A stretch of 64,000 bases of DNA from Taibaiella koreensis (lineage in GTDB: Bacteria > Bacteroidota > Bacteroidia > Chitinophagales > Chitinophagaceae): contig NZ_QVNU01000001.1 in assembly GCF_003545715.1 (NCBI RefSeq), positions 1,054,001 to 1,118,000 of the forward strand, written 5' to 3'. Below, piece by piece: positions 23,800 to 48,107 of the stretch. A model generated the notes under the pieces. The model was not told the origin of the DNA and searched no databases. It worked only from the letters and a program-made list of their open reading frames with translations. A program made the translations under genes and the position numbers. Within the stretch, counting starts at the first letter, position 1. Each line of letters begins with the position of its first letter.

Positions 23800-24219
23800 A
23801 TGAAAAATATAACGGAGCTCAAGGAATTTTTTGAGCAATACGGCGTAGTCAGCTGCTCCGATGATGTGCAGCCGCTGGCCGGTTTTTATGCAGATAGCTT
23901 TATCGTAGCGGGACCCGAAGGCAGCGCTGCTTTTCATAATGATGAACATTTTGCCCGGTGGCTGGATCAGTTACGGGAGGGAAATGAACGGTCCGGGTTG
24001 AAAGGTATGCAAATTGTGGCCTTTAATGAATTTCCTATCAGCGATCAATATAAAGGCGCTACGATAACCTGGGGCGCACAATTTGAAAAGACGGGTGAAG
24101 AGCTGATCCAATTCAATATAACGTACTTCGTTCACTTATTGGACGAAGTACCTAAGATCATTATGTATATCAGTGAGCGTGGCCAGGAAGCACTCATGCA
24201 GGAAAAAGGGCTGCTGTAA
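23800..24219 (+). CDS. Hypothetical NTF2/SnoaL-like protein
   Basis: 139 residues, no signal peptide and no transmembrane segment. A helical start (ITELKEFFEQYGVVSCSDD) is followed by an alternating beta pattern (FYADSFIVAGPEG, ATITWGAQFEKTG, FNITYFVHLLD), which suggests a cone-shaped NTF2-like fold. I do not recognise a catalytic residue set. It stands alone, divergent from the AraC gene, and ends in an AT-rich hairpin. It may be controlled with its neighbours, but there is no direct evidence. Confidence 0.7.
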   Translation: MKNITELKEFFEQYGVVSCSDDVQPLAGFYADSFIVAGPEGSAAFHNDEHFARWLDQLREGNERSGLKGMQIVAFNEFPISDQYKGATITWGAQFEKTGEELIQFNITYFVHLLDEVPKIIMYISERGQEALMQEKGLL

Positions 24220-41809: not shown

Positions 41810-44140
41810 TCAGGAAGGCTGTGCCGCGTTTACCAGCAGGCGCATGGCTTTGGCGGCATTTACCATTTCAACCAGGGCCATTTTCGTTTCCTCCCAGTGC
41901 CTGGTCTTTAAACCACAATCGGGATTGACCCATAATTGACCGGCAGGAATAACGGCCTGCGCTTTTTCCAGCAGGTCCACCATTTCCGCTTGGGTAGGCA
42001 CTCTTGGCGAATGGATATCGTACACGCCCGGGCCTATGTCGTTGGGATACCGGAAGGCTGCGAAAGCGTCCAGCAATTCCATTTGGGAACGGGAGCATTC
42101 GATCGTGATCACATCGGCGTCCATATCGGCAATATGTTCGATAATATCGTTAAACTCCGAATAGCACATATGTGTATGTATCTGCGTTTCGTCTTTCACG
42201 CCGCCGGCCGAAATGCGGAACGCATTGACCGCCCATTTAAGATAGTCGTCCCAGTTTTCTCTTCTTAAGGGCAAGCCTTCGCGAATGGCGGGCTCGTCGA
42301 TCTGTATCACTTTTAATCCGGCTGCTTCCAGGTCGGCGACCTCATCACGTATCGCCAGGGCTATCTGGTTACAGGTTGCAGAACGGGGCTGGTCGTTTCT
42401 TACGAAGGACCATTGGAGTATGGTTACCGGTCCGGTAAGCATCCCTTTGACCGGCTTACCGGTAAGGGATTGTGCAAATGCGCTCCATTTTACCGTCATC
42501 GGCACCGTCCTGGATACATCGCCATAAATAACGGGCGGTTTGACGCAGCGGCTGCCATAGCTCTGTACCCAGCCATTCTGCGTAAAGGCAAAGCCGGATA
42601 ATTGCTCGCCGAAATACTCCACCATGTCGTTGCGTTCAAACTCCCCATGAACCAGGACATCGATGCCGGTTTCTTCCTGCCAGCGGATAGATCTTTCTGT
42701 TTCTTCCTGCAGTAAGGCTTCGTATTGCGCGGCAGACAGATCCCCTTTCTTAAACTGCGCTCTCCAGGCGCGTACTTCTTTGGTCTGTGGGAAAGAGCCT
42801 ATGGTCGTTGTGGGGAACAAAGGCAAATGAAGCGCCTGCTGTTGCTTTTCCTTTCTTATCGCAAACGTATTGGCTCTCCGGGCATCACGGTCTGTAATGG
42901 CCTGTACGCGCTGCTTTACTAATGGATTGTGGATGAGCGCCGAGCTAAGCTTGCCGGCTACCGCAGCACGGTTGCTTTCCCATGCTGCACGGGTTGCATC
43001 GTCTGTCTCTGCCGAGGCCAGCTTCTTCAGCGTAACTACTTCGGCCAGCTTTTGCCTGGCGAATGCCATCCATTGCCTCACTTCCGGTTGGAGTACCGCT
43101 TCATTTGTTTCCAGGTCGAGGTCGCAGGGGCTGTGCAATAAAGAGCAGGATGGCGCTATCCATAGCTTTTCTTCGCCTACTTTGGCTATCGCCGTATCGA
43201 TCAGCGCCAGGGATTGATCAAAATTATTCTTCCAGATATTGCGGCCGTCTACAAGTCCGAGTGAAAGATGCAGCTTGGAATCCTTGTGATACGCTTCCAG
43301 TATATCGCCCAGCTGTGCAGGACAACGTACGAGGTCCAGGTGCAATGTCTGTACTGGTAATTGCAATGCCGTTGCCAGGTTTTCGCCATAGCATTCGAAG
43401 TAATTGGCCAGTATAATGTGCAGGTGGGGGAATCTGGCCCTGATCTGCTTATAGGTATCCAGGTAAATGCTGCGTGTGGCCTCGTCAAGATTCAGAGCCA
43501 GGCAGGGTTCGTCCAGCTGGATATAGTGCGCGCCCGCATTATCCAGCGTTTGTATCAATTCGAGATATACCGGTAGCAGATTTTCGATCAGTTCCAGGCG
43601 GTGAAAGCCCGCTTCTTTTTCTTTTCCCAGTAACAAATAGGAGATGGGGCCCAAAAGCACCGGTTTTGCATTGATCTTTTTATGCTTTGCTTCCAGGAAT
43701 TCATTGAGTGCCTTATGGGAGAGCAGGCTGAAACGCTGATGGGCCGTAAATTCGGGAACGATGTAATGATAATTGGTGTCGAACCATTTGGTCATTTCCA
43801 TTGCTGTAATATCGTATCCCTCTTTTTGGTAGCCCCTTGCCATGGCAAAAAGCAAATCGATATCCGGTAGCCTTTCTTTTTCCATCAGGGGATGATAGCG
43901 GCGCGGTATGGCGCCCAGCATAAAGCTCATGTCGAGCACCTGATCGTAGAACGAGAAGTCGTTTACGGGAATGAGATCGATGCCGGCGTCCTGCTGGATC
44001 TTCCAATTGTCATAGCGGATTGTTTTTCCAGTGAGCAGTAATTCTTCTGCTGTTGCCTTTCCGGCCCAATAGGCTTCCGAGGCCTTTTTCAGCGCTCTGT
44101 TGCTACCAATTCGCGGATAGCCGAGGTTGTGTGTACGCAT
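41810..44140 (-). CDS. metE: Cobalamin-independent methionine synthase MetE
   Basis: 776 residues, the full length of the family. The N-terminal barrel begins RTHNLGYPRIGSNRALKKA and the C-terminal catalytic barrel starts near LPLFPTTTIGSFPQTKEVR. Zinc ligands are visible in HMCYSEF (His and Cys), in the Glu of VITIECSRSQME and in NPDCGLKTR (Cys). It transfers methyl from methyltetrahydrofolate triglutamate to homocysteine without B12. A cobalamin riboswitch sits upstream, so it should be shut off when B12 allows a MetH-type enzyme to work. Confidence 0.97.
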   Translation of the reverse strand: MRTHNLGYPRIGSNRALKKASEAYWAGKATAEELLLTGKTIRYDNWKIQQDAGIDLIPVNDFSFYDQVLDMSFMLGAIPRRYHPLMEKERLPDIDLLFAMARGYQKEGYDITAMEMTKWFDTNYHYIVPEFTAHQRFSLLSHKALNEFLEAKHKKINAKPVLLGPISYLLLGKEKEAGFHRLELIENLLPVYLELIQTLDNAGAHYIQLDEPCLALNLDEATRSIYLDTYKQIRARFPHLHIILANYFECYGENLATALQLPVQTLHLDLVRCPAQLGDILEAYHKDSKLHLSLGLVDGRNIWKNNFDQSLALIDTAIAKVGEEKLWIAPSCSLLHSPCDLDLETNEAVLQPEVRQWMAFARQKLAEVVTLKKLASAETDDATRAAWESNRAAVAGKLSSALIHNPLVKQRVQAITDRDARRANTFAIRKEKQQQALHLPLFPTTTIGSFPQTKEVRAWRAQFKKGDLSAAQYEALLQEETERSIRWQEETGIDVLVHGEFERNDMVEYFGEQLSGFAFTQNGWVQSYGSRCVKPPVIYGDVSRTVPMTVKWSAFAQSLTGKPVKGMLTGPVTILQWSFVRNDQPRSATCNQIALAIRDEVADLEAAGLKVIQIDEPAIREGLPLRRENWDDYLKWAVNAFRISAGGVKDETQIHTHMCYSEFNDIIEHIADMDADVITIECSRSQMELLDAFAAFRYPNDIGPGVYDIHSPRVPTQAEMVDLLEKAQAVIPAGQLWVNPDCGLKTRHWEETKMALVEMVNAAKAMRLLVNAAQPS

Positions 44141-44399
44141 GCGTGCTTCAACTTTTTAAATGGTTAAAAATCATTGTCAAAAGCGCTTCGCTAAACTTCA
44201 CAATGCTGCGGTGGGAAAGAAATGGGTACAGGAAAGCATACGCGGACCGGCAGATACGACAGAACGCAGGAGAAGAATAGTTCTGTGATAGCGGGATCCT
44301 TAAAATGATAGGGCAACGGGGAGGAGCTGTTGTACCAATACCAAACGTATCATACCTGACTATAAGCTTCATATCGCGAAAGCATCGTCAATTCGGAAA

Positions 44400-44548
44400 A
44401 GGCAGGTCTCCTGACTTGTAACGGTTTTTTATCATCCTTCCCATCCCGGCATTGGGGGACAGTGGATCTAATATTTGATAAAAACCTTTGTATGTTACTT
44501 ACAGTTGCGCGACAGTTCGTGATTTGCACACGATTCCCTTTTAATACA
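44400..44548 (-). promoter_or_regulatory. Cobalamin riboswitch controlling metE
   Basis: On the minus strand the element ends with the B12 box AGTCAGGAGACCTGCC (44401-44416), an exact fit to the consensus. It begins with AAAAGGGAATCGTGTGCAAATCACGAACTGTCGCGCAACTGTAAG (cited by position 44548-44504), the typical upstream half. About 260 nt of leader separate it from the metE ATG, room for an expression platform. The boundaries are approximate. Confidence 0.9.
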
Positions 44549-45040
44549 CAGCTAAGCGTAACCCATTCCGGTTGATAAAGAAATAAAGAAAGAACTTATC
44601 GCTGCGAATGTAAGGGTTTTGAAATAAAAAATAAGGTGATAGGCTGATAAAGTGTAAATGAACTATCCAATGTCATTTAGTTAAGCATTTAAGGAAAAAG
44701 GCATGTCGTTAGCCGCTGAAGTCGGCATGACAATGGTATGTTTATGGTTTGGGCTAACGTAACCCTAAACTCGTCATTGTCATCCTGAATCGCTTGTGCA
44801 GCTTGCGAATGAAGGATCTCTTAAAGTGTAATACAGCCGGGGAGCGAAAGGTCTTGGCCGCACATCGCTTTGGCATCCGGGAAGTTGCCGGATGGTATTG
44901 GAATCCCTATCAACCTATGCAGGCAATGGCGGCCCGAAGAGCCGTCACCAAAAAGCGTCAAGCCTGTCACATTGTGCAGCGTACACAAATGTAAACAGGC
45001 TTGAAGCGTCATTTTTGTCGTAAGGTTTACTCCCCTTGCC
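44549..45040. other. Intergenic region with dispersed repeat sequence
   Basis: About 490 bp without a convincing gene. A partial copy of the inverted-repeat end CCAATGTCATTTAGTTAAGC lies at 44667-44686, and 44775-44820 contains a CATTGTCATCCTGAA..GAAGGATCT stretch of the kind found repeatedly between genes in bacterial genomes. The metE promoter should be near 44550-44600. Confidence 0.55.
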
Positions 45041-45241
45041 TTAAACGCAGCAGAGCGAACGGTCATTGGCAGAAAAACAGGCGACCGTATTGGGGCATGA
45101 TTCTGTCCAGATGGGCTCGGGTGGCGGGCAGATGCAGGATGTGGAGATCGGGCCGCCGCCCATGATCATATTCGTTTGTAAGGCTACGATCGTTTTCTTT
45201 TTCAGATCGAGATGCTTGGCAGCAATGTTTGTCTTTTTCAT
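45041..45241 (-). CDS. Putative RiPP precursor (class I lanthipeptide-type leader)
   Basis: 66 residues. The leader contains LDLKKKTIVALQTN (residues 11-24), matching the Bacteroidota class I lanthipeptide leader pattern LxLKKxTIxxL, followed by a glycine cleavage site (MGGG, 27-30). The core (PISTSCICPPPEP, then Cys residues to a terminal CCV) has six Cys and eight Ser/Thr in 36 residues, ideal for thioether rings. No LanB, LanC, protease or exporter gene is in the window, so it is an orphan precursor whose enzymes would be elsewhere, or a relic. The family is assigned from remembered leader motifs. The start ATG at 45239-45241 is the only sensible one. Confidence 0.7.
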   Translation of the reverse strand: MKKTNIAAKHLDLKKKTIVALQTNMIMGGGPISTSCICPPPEPIWTESCPNTVACFSANDRSLCCV

Positions 45242-45477
45242 GAGATGAATGAAATTGTTATTGGTTAACGGTTAACGAAATTTTCTTTACCAAATTTCCG
45301 GAACGGCACTGCATTTTTTCTGCAGTGGCTCCTTTCTGCGCCTGATGGAAACGTTAAGGATTTGAGTAAGCCCATGCCTATTGCCGGTATTCTATAACTT
45401 TACACCCGATTGTGTCTGCCGGCCGGATACATGATTCATAGCATAACCCTGTTTATTCTCACCCAGTACCGATAAAG

Positions 45478-46584: not shown

Positions 46585-47178
46585 TTAAACGGTAACGTCG
46601 CCCGTAGTCACTGCTCCGGCCCGTTTGTAATGGGCTATGATCACGCCGCTTGGTGTGGCTAAGCTCTCTACTAAAATGAACGCTGCGGGGACTATTCCGT
46701 TTTCAAACAGCTTTTTTCCTTCGCCAAGGATCAAAGGATAGATTTTGAGTCGCAACTCGTCTACGAGGTCATGCTGAAGCAGCAGATGGATCAGTGCACT
46801 GCTGCCCCAGACCTGGATATCGGCGCCATCGGAATGCTTAAGCTTTTCAATATCTGCCAGGCTTTTGAGAAAAACGGTATTGCCCCAATCCGATTGTTCC
46901 CTGGTCTGAGACAATACATATTTGTCGCCATCATTAATACCCGGCCAGAAACCGGCATGGTGAGGCCAGTAGGATTCAAAGATATCAAACGTTTTTCTAC
47001 CCAGGAGATAGGCAGCCGGCTTTAGCTCTTCCTGCACGATCCTGCCAAAGACCTCATCGCCGTAAGGCGCCGTCCAGCCGCCATATTGAAAGCCGCCTGA
47101 TGTATCTTCCCCAGGGCCGCCGGGCGCCTGCATCACACCGTCCATCGTAATCATGGACAAAACAATTATTTTTCTCAT
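46585..47178 (-). CDS. Dihydrofolate reductase-like RibD C-terminal domain protein
   Basis: 197 residues. The opening RKIIVLSMITMDGVMQAPGGPGED and the later LLGRKTFDIFESYWP, VWGSSALIHLLLQHDLVDELRL and YPLILGEGKKLF are standard for the RibD_C/DHFR-like family. Fold predicts NADPH-dependent reduction of a small heterocycle; these stand-alone proteins rarely act in riboflavin synthesis. It precedes no obvious operon partner; the alpha/beta hydrolase upstream in the same direction starts 54 bp before it. Confidence 0.9.
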   Translation of the reverse strand: MRKIIVLSMITMDGVMQAPGGPGEDTSGGFQYGGWTAPYGDEVFGRIVQEELKPAAYLLGRKTFDIFESYWPHHAGFWPGINDGDKYVLSQTREQSDWGNTVFLKSLADIEKLKHSDGADIQVWGSSALIHLLLQHDLVDELRLKIYPLILGEGKKLFENGIVPAAFILVESLATPSGVIIAHYKRAGAVTTGDVTV

Positions 47179-47231
47179 CTTATTTGCTTTTTGTGGTCGG
47201 GATAAAAGCTGTACGTAAGATAATATAACGG

Positions 47232-48107
47232 TTATTTCAGAAAGTTGTTGAGATAGCCCAGGATCATTGCCGTCTGCATCATCAGGCTTACATGCCCCTG
47301 TGCCGGGACGATGGCCAGTTGCGATTGGGGCATTGCGCCCATATCGGCGCTCACCGCGCCCCCCAGCAATTGGTAGGTTTTTATCAGCTCGATCTTATCC
47401 AGTCCGTCATTGTCACCGGATATGATGAGCACAGGCGCTGTAATCTTCGAAATATTGGCGTCGCCCATGTCAAATGGCGTTGCTGCCGAAGCGATCATTT
47501 GCTCTAGGAACTTTGTCCATTTTGTTTTATCCGGCGCCACGGCATCGTAAGCGGCTTTCATGGGTGTGTGTGCAAACAATTCGGGCTTCATTGTTTTAAA
47601 AGCCTTGTTTATTTCAGGTAGCCAACCACTGCTTTTGTAAGTAGCAGAAATGATCACTAATTTTCTTAAGCGCCTGGGACTTCGTATCGCAAACTGGTAG
47701 GCCACGGCGCCGCCAAAGCTATACCCGGCAACATCGGCGCTGTCTATTTTCAGATAATCCATTACACCTTCAACATCACTGGCTAAAGTAGTATAGGATA
47801 GTTTCCTGTCGGAAAAGGGTGTATGGCCATGCCCCTGCAATTCAACGGCAATCACTTTCCTGGTTTTGGATAGCTCAGGGATCAATTGACCCCAGTTGGT
47901 ACCAATGGTCATGAAGGCGCCATGCAGCAATACGATGGGCTTGCCTTCCCCATATACCTCATAATAAACTTTGGCTCCGTTGACAGGTGCGTAACCGCTG
48001 CCGGAAGGTTTGCTTTGTTGCGCGTTCGACCGGGGTACTGTCATCATAGTGATCAGGATCAGGACTGTTGCCTGAAGGAGGCTGTTTGTTCTGTGCAGAT
48101 TTTTCAT
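47232..48107 (-). CDS. Secreted alpha/beta hydrolase
   Basis: 291 residues from the ATG at 48105-48107, which gives a signal peptide (NSLLQATVLILITMMTV, ending SNAQ); the frame is open further upstream without sense. Oxyanion region LLHGAFMTIGTNW near 57; nucleophile elbow AGYSFGGA; late acid and His in GDNDGLDK and AQGHVSL. It is of the epoxide-hydrolase/haloperoxidase-like type. It may be co-transcribed with the RibD-like gene that follows. Substrate unknown. Confidence 0.9.
   Translation of the reverse strand: MKNLHRTNSLLQATVLILITMMTVPRSNAQQSKPSGSGYAPVNGAKVYYEVYGEGKPIVLLHGAFMTIGTNWGQLIPELSKTRKVIAVELQGHGHTPFSDRKLSYTTLASDVEGVMDYLKIDSADVAGYSFGGAVAYQFAIRSPRRLRKLVIISATYKSSGWLPEINKAFKTMKPELFAHTPMKAAYDAVAPDKTKWTKFLEQMIASAATPFDMGDANISKITAPVLIISGDNDGLDKIELIKTYQLLGGAVSADMGAMPQSQLAIVPAQGHVSLMMQTAMILGYLNNFLK

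Follow-up and report, generated by a model that had tools for sequence, protein, structure and literature searches.

A conserved class I lanthipeptide-type precursor gene in Taibaiella koreensis belongs to a dispersed genome-wide set and is probably modified in trans

The window analysed here, a 64-kb stretch of Taibaiella koreensis DNA, carries on its minus strand a 66-codon frame (45041-45241) that is a real, conserved gene, and one in no way unusual within a dispersed class I set that is itself remarkable. Scattered over this one genome are at least 129 precursors whose leaders resemble one another and whose Cys/Ser/Thr-rich cores mostly differ. Judging from the sequences, we consider it probable, with good confidence, that the gene encodes a class I lanthipeptide precursor modified in trans by enzymes encoded elsewhere. 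An earlier note, made from the letters alone, had called the frame an orphan and left two alternatives, that its enzymes lie elsewhere in the genome or that it is a stranded gene. Gene content supports the first, since LanB, LanC and a C39 exporter are all encoded elsewhere, and strong purifying selection on the core speaks against the second.

Results

The precursor gene in the window

The gene and its upstream elements are laid out as follows.

45041..45241, minus strand: precursor gene, ATG start, 66 codons plus stop
45152..45241, minus strand: leader, residues 1-30, MKKTNIAAKHLDLKKKTIVALQTNMIMGGG, with LxLxKx5L motif LDLKKKTIVAL and Gly cleavage site
45044..45151, minus strand: core, residues 31-66, PISTSCICPPPEPIWTESCPNTVACFSANDRSLCCV, with 6 Cys and 8 Ser/Thr
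45307..45327, minus strand: inverted repeat CACTGCA-GAAAAAA-TGCAGTG (14/14), a putative operator that precedes the ATG by 65 nt
45291..45298, minus strand: GAAATTTG, a putative -7 promoter element that follows the inverted repeat after 8 nt

The full translation of the minus-strand frame is MKKTNIAAKHLDLKKKTIVALQTNMIMGGGPISTSCICPPPEPIWTESCPNTVACFSANDRSLCCV. Stops interrupt the plus strand in the same register, and shorter plus-strand frames overlap the gene. What the earlier note had read in the peptide is there: the leader pattern LDLKKKTIVALQ, in which LDLKKKTIVAL occupies residues 11-21; a Gly cleavage site, present as the double-Gly leader end MIMGGG at residues 25-30; and a core whose potential ring-forming residues are eight Ser/Thr and six Cys. 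All six Cys are kept in the T. helva orthologue described below.

The note had proposed a search with leader-family models, and the outcome depends on the model. The sole NCBIfam match, NF038153 (lant_leader_L1a), covers residues 1-23 and stays below the cut-off (12.6 against 22 bits, the latter being a detection threshold and not a biological feature). A Pfam scan of the 66-residue peptide gave no match, and an NCBIfam scan of the T. helva orthologue gave no match at all. By contrast, a profile of the sibling leaders, from which the window gene had been left out, scores the precursor at 33.4 bits (E 1.4e-9), the next best among the 653 window frames of at least 30 aa reaching 3.8 bits. As the public scans fall below their cut-off, it is the genome's own siblings that settle the family membership of the window gene.

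A dispersed set of at least 129 precursors

The 5.94-Mb genome contains 129 matches to NF038153 (E <=10), of which 90 reach 22 bits alone and three more do so with neighbours in the frame. Two were excluded, a hit within a frame that looks by eye like an M48-type protease and a frame truncated at 26 residues, and 127 precursors are left; two more outside this list, at C10:614077 and C16:490050, bring the number of intact precursors to at least 129. The note had suggested a search for further copies, and its word orphan holds only locally: genome-wide, the gene is one of these dispersed siblings.

The set is uniform in its leaders and diverse in its cores. All but one of the 127 fit a relaxed LxLxKx5L pattern, and a G-G/A cleavage site is where one would expect it in 126. 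Cys accounts for 13.5% of the residues in cores and 0.16% of those in leaders, and the median core has 47 residues, 6 Cys and 9 Ser/Thr. By eye the cores are mostly unlike one another, with few close pairs (e.g. C20:328337 and C24:74205). The 127 precursors occupy 86 places on 12 contigs, 58 of them singly. Only ten have a LanB or LanC within 10 kb (one near LanB, nine near LanCs); the other 117, including the window gene, lie farther than 10 kb from either enzyme.

Modification and export machinery

A search of the genome for LanB and LanC, which the note had also suggested, found two LanB-like genes and four LanCs, so that the producer has class I enzymes, not co-localised with the window gene. 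LanB1 (1066 aa, C16:310393-313593) carries PF04738 and PF14028, and among solved structures 9g04 (E 2.5e-48) and 5ehk (E 1.3e-31) are closest to it in sequence. A precursor lies about 1 kb upstream of it, and genes for a C39-ABC exporter (731 aa), an HlyD-type protein (444 aa) and a 193-aa cNMP-binding-domain protein follow on the same strand. The fetched 17 kb around LanB1 contain no LanC. LanB2, a LanB-like protein of 922 aa encoded on contig C20, has both LanB Pfam domains and no listed precursor within 10 kb; in its region (C20:115702-120297) the adjoining frame looks like a response regulator by its first residues, and there is also a 384-aa frame.

The four LanCs are separate genes on C18, C10, C19 and C2, all with the zinc-ligand motifs WCYG and CHG; within 10 kb of each there are one to three precursors. 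The four LanC frames have no other Pfam domain, and 448 aa is the maximum length of any frame with a LANC_like match; judged by the LANC_like domain alone, no LanM of usual size is therefore seen. The earlier claim that no LanB or LanC is near the gene is correct: none of the genome's matches falls inside the 64-kb window, and the nearest such enzyme on the contig is a LanC about 0.43 Mb from the window edge and 0.47 Mb from the gene.

Distribution in relatives

Within the genus, NF038153 (E <=1) matches 79 times in T. chishuiensis (G001) and 71 times in T. helva (G003), and a third genome (G002) has neither a match nor a LanB. For the comparisons below, the T. helva set comprises 74 frames (the 71 plus three from a separate search), with at least one false match, a membrane-protein-like frame; in T. 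chishuiensis 78 matches remained once a hit in a 3614-residue frame had been excluded, and 60 of them were retrieved. This species has a LanB locus of ordinary appearance, in which 15 kb take in a precursor, two LanC-like frames (by eye), LanB and a C39 exporter.

Matches become sparse farther away. In a sample of the family, 10 of 147 genomes have an NF038153 match (E <=0.002), with a maximum of seven outside the genus, and in a sample of the phylum at least 9 of 395 do (E <=0.001, candidates scored in part). One genome of another family (G384) carries a tandem, roughly 3.3 kb long (C1:2257066-2260358), that comprises at least 19 class I leader genes, the highest count outside the window genome among the matches listed; several members score equally, like recent duplications. 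LanB was found in nine of ten precursor-bearing relatives tested (the exception being G180) versus 2 of 22 others; 17 of these 22 are named as lacking an NF038153 match, and the five not so named include G041, one of the two with LanB.

Conservation of the gene and turnover of the set

The orthologue of the window precursor in T. helva F-4 is 85% identical overall, and in the core 35 of 36 residues (31-66) agree, with one nonsynonymous and 16 synonymous differences. For residues 30-66, dN is 0.012 and dS 1.35; for residues 1-29 the values are 0.14 and 0.56. The upstream neighbourhood is also similar in T. helva (window 46616-47930, 77% identical), and the inverted repeat recurs upstream of the orthologue at 13/14. 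As a separate observation, T. helva DNA similar to window 23821-24219 sits about 1 kb from the precursor, with about 21 kb lying between them here (window 24220-45000); the 21-kb difference between these landmarks could be an insertion, a deletion or a rearrangement.

Comparison of the 127 precursors with the 74 T. helva frames yields 46 reciprocal-best pairs that pass the core threshold, and the window pair has the highest core score among them. Similar flanking DNA of at least 300 bp accompanies 39 of the 46. Pooled over the pairs, cores have a dN/dS of 0.08 and leaders one of 0.13, the core value being biased low by the selection of pairs on core similarity. Because the upstream neighbourhood of the window gene matches too, the evidence for selection on this gene is independent of that bias.

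Across the 46 orthologous core pairs, Cys is kept at 273 of 278 positions and Ser/Thr at 350 of 399 (372 if either counts), compared with 279 of 340 for Gly/Pro and 691 of 1016 for all other residues. Conservation of Cys together with Ser/Thr is the pattern that ring formation would demand. With T. chishuiensis, only six such core pairs were found (60 fetched of 78 frames). The shared precursors are thus individually constrained, and the whole set is apparently replaced over longer times. The LanB of the window genome and that of T. helva are 89% identical, which suggests that the two species are near relatives.

An inverted repeat, probably in place of a -33 element

The perfect inverted repeat upstream of the window gene (CACTGCA-N7-TGCAGTG, 45307-45327) recurs in a minority of the set. 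At 12/14 or better it precedes 23 of 127 precursors here and 16 of 74 in T. helva, whereas among controls it precedes 4 of 358 other genes from the retrieved loci and turns up in 0 of 1270 shuffles; at 11/14 or better the counts are 33 of 127, with 7 of 358 and 7 of 1270 in the same controls. None of the 60 T. chishuiensis precursors has it at 12/14 or better, and we accordingly rejected the idea that the repeat is general in the genus. Among spacings of 3 to 12, only a spacer of 7 is enriched.

A search of the whole genome with up to two mismatches returns 40 sites, compared with one for the reversed pattern. Of these, 23 precede a listed precursor by no more than 90 bp, as do 14 of the 17 sites with at most one mismatch. 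The remaining three of the 17 lie inside a 678-aa frame, before the LanC frame on C19 and before a microviridin-type precursor. The site at the LanC (C19:468956-468976, or L122:6957-6977) is 13/14 with CATCTTTG 8 nt downstream, and this LanC is the sole gene with a repeat of 12/14 or better among ten machinery-locus genes checked; LanB, the other three LanCs, the exporter, HlyD and the cNMP-binding-domain gene have no such site in the 260 nt upstream. The third case is a perfect repeat 41 nt before a 70-aa microviridin/marinostatin-type precursor (C10:268230-268504, or L238:1501-1775). As this precursor matches NF033738 (48 bits, cut-off 26), the repeat spans two RiPP classes.

The position of the repeat relative to a promoter-like box is nearly constant. 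Among 53 sites of 11/14 or better in the two species, the pattern [TG]ANNTT[TC], which was set after seeing the sites, occurs within 22 nt at 48 and exactly 8 nt downstream at 47. At the window gene the box GAAATTTG matches TAnnTTTG, which we take to be the Bacteroidota -7 promoter type, at 7 of 8 positions. Across the 127 precursors the general TTG/TAnnTTTG promoter pattern is weak (3, with 0.8 expected) and the -7 box alone is enriched (25 versus 8.9). The fixed spacing to the -7 box argues for a DNA operator standing in place of the -33 element. The repeat, a putative operator, probably controls transcription of the window gene. We also considered an intrinsic terminator and rejected it, because the -7-type box 8 nt downstream puts the repeat upstream of transcription and no T-run is visible by eye. 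The cNMP-binding-domain protein encoded after LanB1 is, by position, a candidate regulator of the repeat. Its T. helva counterpart is 86% identical and encoded at the corresponding place; the T. chishuiensis LanB stretch stops directly behind the exporter gene, short of where this protein would follow.

A pseudoknot-like element before other precursors

A subset of precursors that are free of the repeat carries instead GCYGAACAANCNYCCCANGGC, a linker and GACAGGGGAGG, the GACAGG part preceding the start codon by 30-40 nt. The element is absent from the window gene. In an alignment of 25 pattern-selected sequences, 93% of the cells of a 3-bp stem and a 7-bp pseudoknot helix are paired, compared with 35-54% after sliding. 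Cells changed on both sides number 32 versus 10.8 in shuffles (0/500), and the number of pairs with a both-side change is not above that in shuffles (5 versus 4.1, 161/500); the 3-bp stem shows one-sided changes only.

A model of the element (E <1e-5, 150 candidates scored per genome) finds 14 places in the window genome, 11 in T. chishuiensis, 10 in T. helva and none in G002, and 25 of these 35 matches are the sequences from which the model was built. The other ten include seven before listed precursors, one before a precursor-like frame (L293) and one before a different double-Gly peptide (L279, C23:11715-11770 and downstream). The latter is an 85-aa peptide that scores 20.7 bits with the lichenicidin A2 (class II) family, whose cut-off is 32.95. 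In a phylum sample of 296 genomes, nine genomes other than that of the window had matches; eight were judged by eye to be chance, and one locus (L299), in a genome (G453) from another family of the same class, alone keeps the consensus. There the element (E 6e-7) stands 31 nt ahead of the frame for a 75-aa double-Gly peptide that matches no family.

The element may therefore not be confined to Taibaiella or to lanthipeptides. Rfam has no family for it in scans of ten loci (nine with the element) and of one element alone. It is a pseudoknot RNA with covariation that, as far as Rfam shows, is undescribed, and it may be the genome's most novel feature. The window itself holds a known RNA, a cobalamin riboswitch (RF00174, 102.6 bits, 44384-44581, minus strand), directly upstream of a frame (41810-44140) that by eye looks like the B12-independent methionine synthase MetE.

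Discussion

Modification in trans and its alternatives

How might a gene so far from any modifying enzyme be matured? We suggest that LanB1, encoded on C16, would recognise the leader (LDLKKKTIVAL...MGGG) and dehydrate core Ser/Thr, that one or more of the four LanCs would close thioether rings with the six Cys, and that the C39 peptidase/ABC exporter with HlyD would cut after the Gly run and export a polycyclic peptide. A dimeric regulator may act through the inverted repeat, directly upstream of the promoter, in about one quarter of the set, and the secreted product could have a role such as antagonism or signalling. We infer further that a single LanB serves all such unlike cores. Several findings count against this scheme: the NF038153 score is under the cut-off and the T. 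helva orthologue lacks any NCBIfam match, the nearest LanB or LanC on the contig is 0.47 Mb away, G180 bears precursors without a LanB match, and the repeat is absent from roughly three in four members of the set and from all 60 T. chishuiensis precursors.

Double-Gly leaders also serve unmodified bacteriocins, and the same gene could be read as encoding a secreted, C39-exported Cys-rich peptide that is stabilised by disulfides and not by lanthionines. The Cys-rich cores (median 6 Cys) would suit such a product, as would the lack of LanB and LanC beside the gene. We nevertheless think it unlikely, since Ser/Thr are better conserved than other residues (350/399 versus 691/1016), same-leader precursors lie near LanB in one case and near LanCs in nine, and LanB co-occurs with precursors in relatives; the leader, moreover, is of the type described for LanB substrates in the portions of PMC7268733 consulted. 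A different enzyme class sharing this leader type (radical SAM, ATP-grasp, LanM or a specialised LanB2) could be invoked on the ground that a microviridin-type precursor has the same repeat, so that other RiPP machinery may be co-expressed. That the only NCBIfam match, even if below cut-off, is a class I lanthipeptide leader, that Cys is nearly invariant between orthologues, as thioether rings would need, and that no LanM of usual size is seen by its LANC_like domain together make this reading quite improbable. Highly improbable is a chance frame or a dead gene stranded from a lost cluster, as might be supposed from the absence of enzymes nearby and the NF038153 score under the cut-off. The substitution pattern refutes it, the two species agreeing in 35 of 36 core residues at a dS of 1.35 (residues 30-66), and the 16 silent differences disfavour a recent transfer of the orthologue; the upstream element is also kept in T. 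helva, and distance from LanB and LanC is shared by 117 of 127 precursors. Modification in trans by class I enzymes is thus the reading we retain.

Beyond the single gene, we raise tentatively, and with more doubt than confidence, the idea of a genome-wide RiPP regulon. One hub (LanB, the C39 exporter, HlyD and perhaps the cNMP-binding-domain protein as regulator) would serve about 130 precursors, and an operator subset, containing the window gene, a LanC and the microviridin-type precursor, and a subset under the cis-acting RNA pseudoknot would give different peptide blends under different signals. The shared operator and the pseudoknot would be handles on when the peptides are made.

Comparison with known lanthipeptide systems

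Leaders of the LxLxKx5L/double-Gly type are described for class I LanAs of Bacteroidetes in the parts of Walker et al. (2020; PMC7268733) that we draw on, where the search is described as limited to a distance of seven genes around a LanC-domain protein. With the precursors presented there, those of T. koreensis share the leader motif, the Gly cleavage site, a C39 protease/exporter and the presence of LanB and LanC in the genome. Unlike them, most lie far from LanB and LanC, and the 17 kb around LanB1 are without LanC. Searches limited to LanB/LanC neighbourhoods would miss most of the set. The clustered class I arrays of G038 and G384 share the NF038153 leader family and several precursors per genome; they are clustered (in G384 at least 19 in about 3.3 kb, in G038 with a LanB nearby on the same contig), whereas the set described here is dispersed. 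In titles and abstract openings, with few subscription journals covered, we found no comparable scattered class I precursor set, nor any literature on Taibaiella lanthipeptides or on lanthipeptide precursors of Chitinophagaceae.

Dispersed precursor libraries are known for cyanobacterial class II lanthipeptides, according to the sections of PMC10783134 used here, in which prochlorosins are scattered and the two highest counts per genome are 83 and 79 precursors; the excerpted text of PMC12328550 credits SyncM with 79. If the reading proposed here is true, T. koreensis has a class I counterpart that exceeds the counts given in those sections of PMC10783134, which would suggest that a split LanB/LanC system can serve many unlike substrates. 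Some 130 leader-matched natural substrates would then be at hand for studying LanB/LanC tolerance. Constrained precursors shared with the nearest species, and few with a distant one, bear on the purpose of such libraries.

The likeness to prochlorosins and synechococsins (ProcM, SyncM; PMC10783134, as far as the sections used describe them) lies in tens of scattered precursors with similar leaders and unlike cores, and the dispersal is matched here (127 precursors in 86 places, 58 single, plus two). There, precursors scattered or in tandems are served by one promiscuous enzyme, as a single LanB would serve those of T. koreensis. The machinery differs: prochlorosins are class II products of LanM with Nif11-family leaders, whereas T. 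koreensis has class I enzymes, LanB and separate LanCs, with at least 129 precursors and a repeat shared within the set. The NCBIfam scan of the window peptide gave no Nif11 leader match, and the LANC_like domain, in frames of at most 448 aa, gave no class II synthetase. The set to which the window gene belongs is organised like the prochlorosins and is not a member of the prochlorosin family.
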